Assembly (NCBI GenBank): GCA_910575705.1
Contig: CAJTFG010000001.1
Coordinates: 124,001 to 188,000, forward strand
Direction of reading: 5' to 3'
DNA from: Erysipelotrichales bacterium
Lineage (GTDB): Bacteria; Bacillota_I; Bacilli_A; Erysipelotrichales; Erysipelotrichaceae
Length of the DNA stretch: 64,000 bases
In this document: in pieces, positions 19,782 through 38,977 of the stretch
Numbering within the stretch: the first letter of the stretch is position 1
Layout of the letters: every line of letters starts with the position of its first letter
The notes under the pieces: generated by a model
What the model was told of the DNA's origin: nothing
Databases searched by the model: none
Seen by the model: the letters and a program-made list of their open reading frames with translations, nothing else
Program-made: the position numbers and the translations under genes

Positions 19782-19892
19782 AGTAGGGCTCCCCTTTCTC
19801 AAAGACTTACTAATTAACATTATATCTATTATGAAAGAAAATTGCAATGTCTTTGAAACATTTTTCCAACACCGTCATTTCTTTCACAAACC

Positions 19893-20174
19893 CTCTGTAA
19901 TTCACTTTGCATATAGAATCATTTCCATATAATCGAAGCATATATAACAGAGCCGGACGCTGACGGACTGCACGGGCTATATCAGGGGGACTTACGTTGA
20001 ATCGTATCTGACCGGAAATAGATATGTGAAAAGAGGATTGAAGAGTATAGCTGCTGGATGACCAATTCCCACAATTTACACCCGGTGTACATAATCCATT
20101 TGCTGGGTATATAATCGAATCGATAACGGAGGAAGCAATCGAAACAGGAGTATGATATGCAACAGAAATCGTGC
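19893..20174 (-). repeat. Variable cassette A (silent C-terminal segment)
   Basis: Minus-strand cassette. The 5' box (minus GCACGATTTCTG, 20163-20174) reads Thr-Ile-Ser. It opens a stop-free frame of 75 codons that ends in Gln-Arg-Pro-Ala-Leu at box 19947-19962 (plus ACAGAGCCGGACGCTG). A 60-bp imperfect palindrome (CTCTGT at 19893, ACAGAG at 19947) follows. There is no ATG start: an in-frame TAA lies just before the 5' box. The core has W37 followed by SSSS, about 38 residues before the end, as in C-type-lectin-like domains. The inner stem is weaker than in other copies. A long (about 200 bp) spacer joins it to cassette B. Confidence 0.75.
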
Positions 20175-20373
20175 CCTCTTACAAAGGAACCCCTATCCAT
20201 CATTTTAAGGAGCTCCTGATCTACCTTATAATGCAACTCCAGTCCAAAAAGTTTTCAATAAGGTTTCTCTTATGCATAAAAGTTCATTCTCTTTTTCTTT
20301 TTTAACCTACCTTTATAGAAAGGATAACAGATATTGTATAAATATTCGCTAGTAAATATTGAAAATACCTATC

Positions 20374-20633
20374 CTCTGTATGTTATATAGAACTATGATA
20401 TATACCATAGTTTCCTAACATTCACAGAGCCGGACGCTGAAGATGTGTGCTTGGTTGTGGATAAGTACGAAACTGTAGGAAATAACCACGGCTGTTTGGT
20501 GAACCGACCCATCTATCAGGAAATGGAGTAGCGCCAAGAGCAACTGTGTCGACATTACCGGCTCGTTGATATGCAAAAGTAACTTTTTGTCCGAAAATAT
20601 TAGGTTCATCAAATTGATACAAAGAAATCGTGC
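20374..20633 (-). repeat. Variable cassette B
   Basis: Minus-strand cassette with 69 stop-free codons from Thr-Ile-Ser (box around 20623-20633) to Gln-Arg-Pro-Ala-Leu-stop (box 20424-20439). The palindrome is 56 bp (20374-20429) with a perfect inner stem AACTATG / CATAGTT around an 8-nt loop. An ATG lies three codons before the 5' box, but no ribosome site is visible. The core sequence is unrelated to that of cassette A apart from the two boxes. It is the upstream-most member of the first array. Confidence 0.75.
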
Positions 20634-26399: not shown

Positions 26400-26522
26400 A
26401 ACCGATCCTCCGTTTTGAAACATCTGCAATCCTTACCTGTCTCTTATATCGAAATTATATCATTTTCTCATAAACTATCCATAAGCTGCCTTTGCGCTTA
26501 TCAACACCTTAGGTATCAATTC

Positions 26523-26806
26523 CTCTGTATGTTATATAGAATCATAATACTTATTATAATTATTGAATATCTACAGAGCCGGACGCTGTTGCTGATCTAA
26601 TGCATATGTAAATCTGGCATCATAGGAACCGATATGAGATAGAAAAATAGCCACGTTTGGTTTTTGAAATCCTGTTACCGGAGTAGACCCTAATACTCCT
26701 TCCAAATCATACTCGGACACTTTATCGTAAGCAAATACCTCATCAACGGAGCCGTTAAAATTCTGCCCGATAATCGGTACCAGTGTCCTAGAATTAGAAA
26801 TCGTGC
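26523..26806 (-). repeat. Variable cassette C
   Basis: 77 stop-free codons from Thr-Ile-Ser (26796-26806) to Gln-Arg-Pro-Ala-Leu-stop (26573-26588). The palindrome spans 56 bp (26523-26578); its inner stem AATCATA / TATAATT has one mismatch. Upstream the frame runs back through Ser-Tyr-Ser as in cassettes D and F. It is last in the five-cassette array and lies 124 bp upstream of a lipoprotein gene start. Confidence 0.78.
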
Positions 26807-26907
26807 TATAGCTGATCCAAGAAGGGAAAAAGAGAATGAAAAGCCTACCTTTTATATAAAGGATACCAGAGAATATACAAATAATTATTAGTAAATATTG
26901 GAAATAC

Positions 26908-27188
26908 CTCTGTATCTTGTATACGATCATAATGCTTATCATGATCTCCTTACATCGACAGAGCCGGACGCTGTGAATAGGGGCCATTTAAACTACCACC
27001 AAAATAACTGGCAGTCCCCTGATAACTGATGCCAAATAGTCTTCGCTCTAATAAAGGGGAGGAGGAATACAGATACCAAAAAAATCCATCTTCCATATTT
27101 AACGGTTGAAAGCTTAGTTCTTTTATCTGGGTTCCTGTAAGATTATGCCCTATGTTCGGGAGAACATTATTTTGAACAGAAATCGTGC
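26908..27188 (-). repeat. Variable cassette D
   Basis: 76 stop-free codons from Thr-Ile-Ser (27178-27188) to Gln-Arg-Pro-Ala-Leu (26958-26973), then Ser-Met-stop. The 56-bp palindrome (26908-26963) has inner stem GATCATA / CATGATC, a sequence different from its neighbours yet still paired. W37 is followed by YLYSSS. No usable start codon precedes it. A ~100-bp spacer with a CCTTTATATAAAGG hairpin precedes it on the minus strand. Confidence 0.78.
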
Positions 27189-27285
27189 TATAACTGCTAA
27201 AGAGGGATAAATAAAAAGCCTACCTTTATATAAAGGATAGCAGATACTATGGAAATAGTTGCTAGAAAATACTGGAAATGAAAAC

Positions 27286-27581
27286 CTCTGCATCTTATAT
27301 ACAACTATAATACGTACTATAGTTATCGAATCTATACAGAGCCGGACGCTTGGATCCCATAGTGCGTGCATTGCCTTGCGGTTCTCCTTTAGCGTACATC
27401 GCGTCAACACCACCGGTACTCCCGTAAGCTAAGGCATCCATATCCCAGTGATGTCCATTTGAGAACACAGATGATGACCAGATACGAGTATCACCAGTCG
27501 TATACAATGTTGCTAATTGTCCATATAAATTACCACATAACTCCGGAGGATAATAGATGCCAAATACTACAGAAATCGTGC
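27286..27581 (-). repeat. Variable cassette E
   Basis: 81 stop-free codons from Thr-Ile-Ser (27571-27581) to Lys-Arg-Pro-Ala-Leu (27336-27350; one base change turns Gln to Lys). The 56-bp palindrome (27286-27341) has a perfect inner stem AACTATA / TATAGTT with an 8-nt loop. The core holds W34-SSS. Its upstream spacer is the long type shared with cassette A, containing TTATGCATAAG. Confidence 0.78.
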
Positions 27582-27707
27582 CCCTCTTATAATGGAATCC
27601 TGCTCCTCATTATCTTCTTCCTACCTTTGGAACTGAATCCCAGACCAGTTGTTTTAAAGAAGGTTCCCCTTATGCATAAAATTTCATCCTCTTTTTTCTA
27701 CCATTCC

Positions 27708-27964
27708 CTCTGTGTCTTATACAGAACTATAATACTTACTATAGCTTTCTCTTCTTTACAGAGCCGGACGCTGAAAATACTGTTGATCATATGCAGGAGG
27801 CCAACCGATGACAGCACTATACGTTACATACCATAAGCCATCAGAATAAGGTGCTCTTCCTAATGAACTGCTGCTTAGCCACGCCCCTCGACCTTTACAG
27901 ATCATACTGAAAACAGCGTTTTTTCCATACACCGGCACTAAGAAGAATGAATGAGAAATCGTGC
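27708..27964 (-). repeat. Variable cassette F
   Basis: 68 stop-free codons from Thr-Ile-Ser (27954-27964) to Gln-Arg-Pro-Ala-Leu-stop (27758-27773). The 56-bp palindrome (27708-27763) has inner stem AACTATA / TATAGCT with one mismatch. The core reads W28-L-SSSS followed by a second aromatic pair (LWYVTY), the clearest C-type-lectin-like pattern of the set. Confidence 0.78.
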
Positions 27965-28064
27965 TATAGCTGATCCAAGAAGGGAAGAAAAGAATAAAAA
28001 TCCTACCTATGAAATAAGGATAGCAGATAATTTATAAAAATTTATTAGTAAATATTGGAAAAGC

Positions 28065-28331
28065 CTCTATATTGCATGCTTCATTATAATTCCTATTATA
28101 ATGATCAGATGCATCTAACAGGGCCGGACGCTGATGGCAGGAGAGATTTCCTTAACTTAGGATCGCCATAAGCACCATTGCACTTCAATGTAAAGATCAC
28201 GCTTTTAAGAACATCTAGTGAGGAGATAGATAGTGCTTCAAAGTCATTATTACCGCCTGAACAGGATCCAAAACCTAGTGATGGAACAACGACTTGTTTA
28301 AGAATAATTTGATTCTGGACAGAAATCATGC
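28065..28331 (-). repeat. Variable cassette G (out of frame, degenerate)
   Basis: Same layout, but box-to-box distance is 211 nt, so the Gln-Arg-Pro-Ala-Leu frame is lost by one base. The 5' box reads Met-Ile-Ser instead of Thr-Ile-Ser, the 3' box has one change (ACAGGGCCGGACGCTG, 28118-28133) and the outer palindrome arm is CTCTAT / ACAGGG. The inner stem TCATTATAA / TTATAATGA is, however, a perfect 9 bp. It is first in the array on the coding strand and looks like a decaying copy. Confidence 0.7.
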
Positions 28332-38642: not shown

Positions 38643-38699
38643 ATGATCACCTGCTTTCTACATCATAGTGTATTCCGTAAAGTAAAAAATATTGAAGTC

Positions 38700-38977
38700 C
38701 TCTGCATAAAATATGAAATTATAATACTTACTATAATTATAGAATACATACAGAGCCGGACGCTGATAAAAAGCACCTTTACCATCATCTATCCAGCTTG
38801 CAATACAAATACCAACAGTACCATTCGATTTATAGTACCATGGTTGTGTATTTGCTCCAGTATAATTTCCGGTTGATGCGCTCCAGCCGTGTTCATAGGC
38901 TCTTAATCCAAGTTTACAATAATAAAAGGAAGCATTTGCTTGTGAGGATATTAGACTTTGATAAGCAGAAATCGTGC
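38700..38977 (-). repeat. Variable cassette H (solitary)
   Basis: 75 stop-free codons from Thr-Ile-Ser (38967-38977) to Gln-Arg-Pro-Ala-Leu (38750-38765); the frame continues a further ~30 codons through the palindrome. The 56-bp palindrome (38700-38755) has perfect inner stem AATTATA / TATAATT. The core has W31-SAS. An ATG lies 6 codons before the box and another 4 codons further up, with no clear ribosome site. It sits 10 kb from the arrays, alone, between a kinase and the MGMT-like gene. Confidence 0.75.

Follow-up and report, generated by a model that had tools for sequence, protein, structure and literature searches.

In the diversity-generating retroelement (DGR) of Bordetella phage BPP-1, a spacer located 3′ of the template repeat (TR) folds, recruits bRT-Avd and primes the cDNA (PMC12875486), and a hairpin is also present at the target, 3′ of the variable repeat (VR) (PMC3240598). 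DGRs with several TRs or many VRs are on record (PMC6642488), and remote DGR targets get missed (PMC8144416). The system described here, part of which lies in the 64,000-nt stretch of DNA that was analysed (the window), shares with the BPP-1 type a reverse transcriptase (RT) of the DGR clade with the motifs YMDD and GNLVSQ, an Avd encoded upstream of it, a replaced segment that ends in RPAL, a fixed 3′ site, and a structured element immediately downstream of the donor. It differs in that adenine mutagenesis and a TR/VR pair beside the RT are absent, motif 4 contains a Q, ~134 divergent donors are present rather than one, and the target is a surface protein of 6844 aa.

Silent-cassette antigenic variation, as in Borrelia vlsE, Neisseria pilE/pilS and Treponema tprK, resembles the present case: donors that lack a promoter or a start are copied faithfully into one expression locus, which encodes a surface protein. 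In contrast to those systems, the donors are here dispersed in the chromosome, the end sites are exact and short, a covarying sense-strand hairpin is present, and the genome encodes RT-Avd. A single expression locus, silent donors and an identifiable exact donor are observed here as well. Integron attC arrays likewise consist of tandem cassettes that each end in a structure-conserved site; however, attC core boxes are missing here, no IntI is evident among the three tyrosine recombinases found, the hairpin is left behind in most exchanges, and the fold signal belongs to one strand. No paper describing such a combination of cassettes, short end sites and hairpin, or anything like the system as a whole, was found in the open-access literature that was searched, which falls short of a proof of novelty.

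Cassettes and hairpins in the window and the genome

The genome comprises 1.85 Mb in 11 contigs, from which the surroundings of cassette copies and of genes of interest were retrieved, and ~135 cassettes are scattered through it. The layout is GCACGATTTC, 55–93 in-frame start-less codons, CAGCGTCCGGCTCTG (QRPAL) and the hairpin, with GCACGATTTC and CAGCGTCCGGCTCTG as exact end sites. A profile built from 40 cassettes recovered 133 copies, and 136 were identified by the 5′ site; the distance from end site to end site leaves the same remainder modulo 3 in 134 of these 136. The cassette HMM, run on 144 relatives, 271 family and 394 class genomes (overlapping sets), found cassettes in the genome of origin only, and three pattern matches in viral contigs carried none. 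No excess of sigma-70-type promoters or terminators was found near cassettes.

The silent cassette at 27337–27581 on the minus strand of the window, recognized by its end sites and the profile, consists of GCACGATTTC, a start-less ORF and CAAGCGTCCGGCTCTG (KRPAL). Its hairpin (27285–27343, minus strand) has the outer stem CTCTGT/GCAGAG, an inner 9-bp stem and a 4-nt loop, and scores 76.2 bits with the hairpin model on the minus strand and 26.9 on the plus strand. The remaining cassettes and hairpins of the window are also on the minus strand. Sequence comparison revealed that the silent cassette at 26574–26806 is identical over 233 bp to G000:C1:78787 and that at 26959–27188 over 230 bp to G000:C3:32182, with unrelated flanks in both cases, while that at 27759–27964 is 95% identical to G000:C4:49185. 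The respective hairpins, at 26522–26580 (82.1 bits), 26907–26965 and 27707–27765, were found by both pattern and model. Further silent cassettes, identified by end site and profile, are situated at 20425–20633, 19948–20174 and 38751–38977, and their hairpins, again detected by pattern and model, at 20373–20431, 19892–19954 and 38699–38757. A decayed cassette with a degenerate 5′ site, GCATGATTTC, and a broken frame occupies 28119–28331.

The hairpin positions given in the earlier note are correct, and six of the eight window copies indeed have exactly 56 bp between CTCTGT or CTCTGC and ACAGAG; the seventh (19892–19954) is a 60-bp variant, and the eighth, at 28064–28125, is degenerate (27.2 bits; 3′ arm CAACAGGG). 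The 7-bp stem with an 8-nt loop described there has to be replaced by the 9-bp inner stem and 4-nt loop seen on the minus strand. Since the cassettes are read on this strand, the hairpin lies 3′ of the cassette end, and the last codons of the coding part (RPAL) overlap with its 5′ outer arm.

The chance expectation of the window hairpin pattern is 0.1. In the genome as a whole, the paired pattern with CCGGACG was counted 69 times and the core CAGAGCCGGACGC was counted 112 times; the reversed-pattern control gave 0. Under looser rules the outer arms terminate 130 of 135 cassettes; the 3′ arm in this set was picked for best pairing, and the unbiased fold numbers were therefore taken from 72 copies of fixed length. 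An Rfam scan of the window returned tRNAs only.

Covariation and the strand that folds

The paired changes among the window copies had been taken in the earlier note as a sign of selection on a folded strand, either DNA, as in attC sites or hairpins used by single-strand recombinases, or RNA. The genome-wide covariation analysis proposed there was carried out on 72 distinct fixed-length copies with shuffles and slid partners as controls; as the copies are related, nominal p-values overstate their independence. Pairing in the named structure is observed in 95.5% of cells (72 copies), compared with 88.7 ± 0.4 in shuffles and 25–59% of cells for slid partners. Compensatory change on both sides is seen in 12 of the 15 stem pairs versus 6.1 in shuffles, and double-change cells number 101, whereas shuffles give 23.8 ± 6.9 and slid controls no more than 23. 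The covariation score of the structure is 0.345 versus 0.202 for shuffles, and the top three values of corrected mutual information over all column pairs belong to stem pairs. The outer arms also covary, as illustrated by CTCTGT/ACAGAG, CTCTGC/GCAGAG, CTTTGT/ACAAAG, CTCTAT/ATAGAG and CTCAAT/ATTGAG, in which the 3′ arm was chosen for pairing. The result named in the earlier note as refuting, pairing no better than phylogeny alone predicts, did not arise, and the double changes and the paired cells support selection on a folded strand.

On the cassette-sense strand, G-T pairs outnumber A-C pairs by 113 to 28, or by 59 to 13 among distinct stems. The folding energy is −15.7 kcal/mol for the sense strand, −13.4 kcal/mol for the opposite strand and −7.9 kcal/mol for shuffled sequences. 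The G-T excess together with the better fold of the sense strand suggests that just one strand folds, the one of sense polarity, for which RNA is the simplest candidate. That the hairpin folds as cassette-sense RNA rather than as attC-like DNA is well supported, and the RNA hairpin is the best fit of the options initially offered.

The expression site and exact exchange

The sole cassette in a long open frame (6858 codons) is located at C3:195908-196137. It is internal to a gene on the minus strand, C3:197065-176531, with YLKNLPS next in frame, and no hairpin follows it in the stretch checked. The encoded protein of 6844 aa is a secreted, membrane-anchored one: it contains Ig-like domains, and both a signal peptide and, at the C-terminus, a membrane helix with lysines were recognized by eye. 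Its N-terminal domain has no match in Pfam, PDB or PHROGs. With regard to a C-type-lectin fold, the RPAL end is common with DGR variable repeats; no Pfam or PDB match was obtained, and AlphaFold2 without an alignment gave an unusable model (pLDDT 30).

The expression-site cassette and the silent cassette C1:633034 share 247 bp of identical sequence, and three further identical pairs consist entirely of silent cassettes with unrelated flanks. The 5′ limit of identity in the four pairs is GCACGATTTC, beyond which two of them share 2 and 15 bp of flank; the 3′ limit is CTCTG or CTCTGTA in three pairs and lies past the hairpin in one. In the three silent-only pairs, the match begins at GCACGATTTC (in one, 2 bp earlier) and ends at CTCTG in two and after the hairpin in the third. 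The 5′ side shared with the expression site is exactly 10 bp in 74 of the 136 cassettes, while 17 silent cassettes retain an exact run of 25–50 bp of expression-site upstream sequence, the 10-bp site included, with varying extent. Diverged cassette pairs differ mostly at third codon positions and without A bias, as is the case for protein sequences under constraint. The exact donor copy and the identity bounded by two end sites identify the cassettes as a variant library for one slot, exchanged at exact ends, and it is well supported that this silent library feeds the single expression site.

The reverse transcriptase and proposed routes of exchange

A single RT was detected in the genome; it and Avd make up a small locus surrounded by housekeeping genes. 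It falls in the DGR clade with RTs of gut Bacillota DGRs, apart from group II intron RTs, and carries YxDD (YMDD) and an SQ motif. The Avd matches bAvd (E 6e-12) and phrog_3206 Avd (E 1.6e-21); the NCBIfam Avd model is matched below its cut-off, with 42 of 80 bits. No A-biased template/variable repeat pair exists within 7 kb of the RT, and the same script, as a positive control, detects one near the RT in most of 83 RT relatives. Motif 4 reads GLAQGNLVSQ, and the position of its Q is I, L or V in 82 of 84 RTs, P in one, and Q in this RT only; group II RTs likewise have Q here, and HIV-1 has Q151 (PMC3521204). In the four exact transfers 0 of 238 A positions are changed, compared with 129 of 300 in relatives. 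Because identity was the criterion for picking these pairs, the 0 of 238 is partly selected; free of such selection is the lack of A bias among near-identical pairs.

The nearest RTs, 42–45% identical, are from uncultured gut Clostridia and Tenericutes. In these relatives a hairpin follows the template repeat, with its first arm overlapping the repeat end, which is the layout of the cassettes. Their variable repeats have RPAL at the end, and visual inspection showed no comparable hairpin behind these repeats; the hairpin model found no homologue in the template regions. Among the relatives, family and class genomes searched, no second genome with both RT-Avd and cassettes was found. Ordinary DGRs are located near the RT in L161, L159, L157, L163 and L168, and two variable repeats of L161 sit in a pilin-like protein (FTLIELLAVI start).

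We consider it probable that RT-Avd copies the cassettes faithfully, and that the hairpin serves as the 3′ RNA element of the template; the role of the RT, the transcription of silent cassettes and the role of the hairpin are inferred. According to this proposal, each silent cassette would be a template ending in the hairpin, which would recruit or prime RT-Avd as the structured spacer 3′ of the BPP-1 template repeat does. RT-Avd would reverse-transcribe the cassette RNA starting in the 3′ hairpin region, and the cDNA would take the place of the resident sequence from one end site to the other, both in the expressed gene and in further silent cassettes. Substitution of Q for the usual I/L/V of motif 4 may have cost the RT its adenine mutagenesis, with the result that whole variants would be switched faithfully. 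The broader reading, which we just favour, is that of a DGR turned high-fidelity many-template retro-copier, in which ~134 dispersed RNA templates with their own 3′ elements serve one slot in a giant protein via RT-Avd. Sequence of the expression site may be archived in silent sites as well, given that 17 silent cassettes retain upstream sequence of that site. Counted against the RT model are the circumstantial nature of RT involvement, the single draft genome, the lack of a hairpin homologue in the template regions of relatives and of a sigma-70-type promoter excess near cassettes, and the hairpin that follows the BPP-1 target, as opposed to none at the expression site in the stretch checked.

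The main rival, RecA-type gene conversion from silent cassettes as in Borrelia vls, Neisseria pil and Treponema tprK, does without the RT: the hairpin would stabilize RNA, act in termination or assist recombination, and RT-Avd would be an unrelated orphan. One expression site with many silent donors, the exact donor and the missing TR near the RT agree with it, as do mosaic cassettes such as G000:C3:145825, which has its 5′ half in common with C1:600323 and its 3′ half with C4:40214 and thus reflects recombination or template switching inside cassettes. Many cassettes, however, share with the expression site only the 10-bp and ~15-bp end sites, which are short for RecA, yet exchange is exact there, and we regard this explanation as unlikely. 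Still less probable is that the cassettes are retrohoming targets. In this case the mRNA of the giant gene would be the substrate of reverse transcription, the product would be archived in silent sites, and the hairpin would mark the target, like the one located 3′ of the variable repeat in BPP-1. This precedent (PMC3240598) and the 25–50 bp of expression-site upstream sequence in 17 silent cassettes are in its favour, but the BPP-1 hairpin acts as DNA and can form on either strand, while the G-T/A-C asymmetry here points to one strand, and the nearest relatives place the hairpin after the template repeat.

The idea that the hairpin is a folded single-stranded DNA site for a recombinase, of the attC (integron) or HUH/REP type, accommodates tandem start-less cassettes that each have a terminal structured site, and IS200-type Y1 transposases are present in the genome (G000:C3:227866, C3:129593 and C1:249989, one with stops). 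Nevertheless, the outer arms are CTCTGT/ACAGAG with compensatory variants rather than the RYYYAAC/GTTRRRY core boxes of attC, and the hairpin stayed behind in three of the four identical pairs. The three tyrosine recombinases found comprise two of Xer size and one that looks Tn916-like by inspection (C5:37185). With the G-T excess and the better fold on the sense strand, this leaves the attC-like reading of the earlier note very improbable.

If faithful copying by RT-Avd is true, DGRs and silent-cassette antigenic variation, so far treated as separate routes to surface diversity, meet in one system, in which reverse transcription drives cassette switching in the manner of antigenic variation. 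One active-site residue may then divide random mutagenesis from faithful shuffling, and the system would explain why so unusually many recognition domains are archived for a giant surface protein of a bacterium. Should the RT play no part, the ~135 cassettes, with their short, exact end sites and a hairpin that covaries on the sense strand, are still a striking repertoire.

We also note some variation in the arrangement of the cassettes. The silent-cassette leaders belong to few recurrent types, which are reused with different cassettes (e.g., ...CCCTTCTTGGATCAGCTATA and ...GAGGAGCGGGGTTCCATTATAAGGTGG). At G000:C1:621892-622204, the following cassette begins ~20 bp past the hairpin, without the usual leader of ~100 bp. 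Three cassettes, G000:C1:211395, C3:112312 and C3:145398, have RPAQ in place of RPAL; the usual inner stem is absent by eye in all three, and two of them possess the outer arms CTCAAT/ATTGAG.
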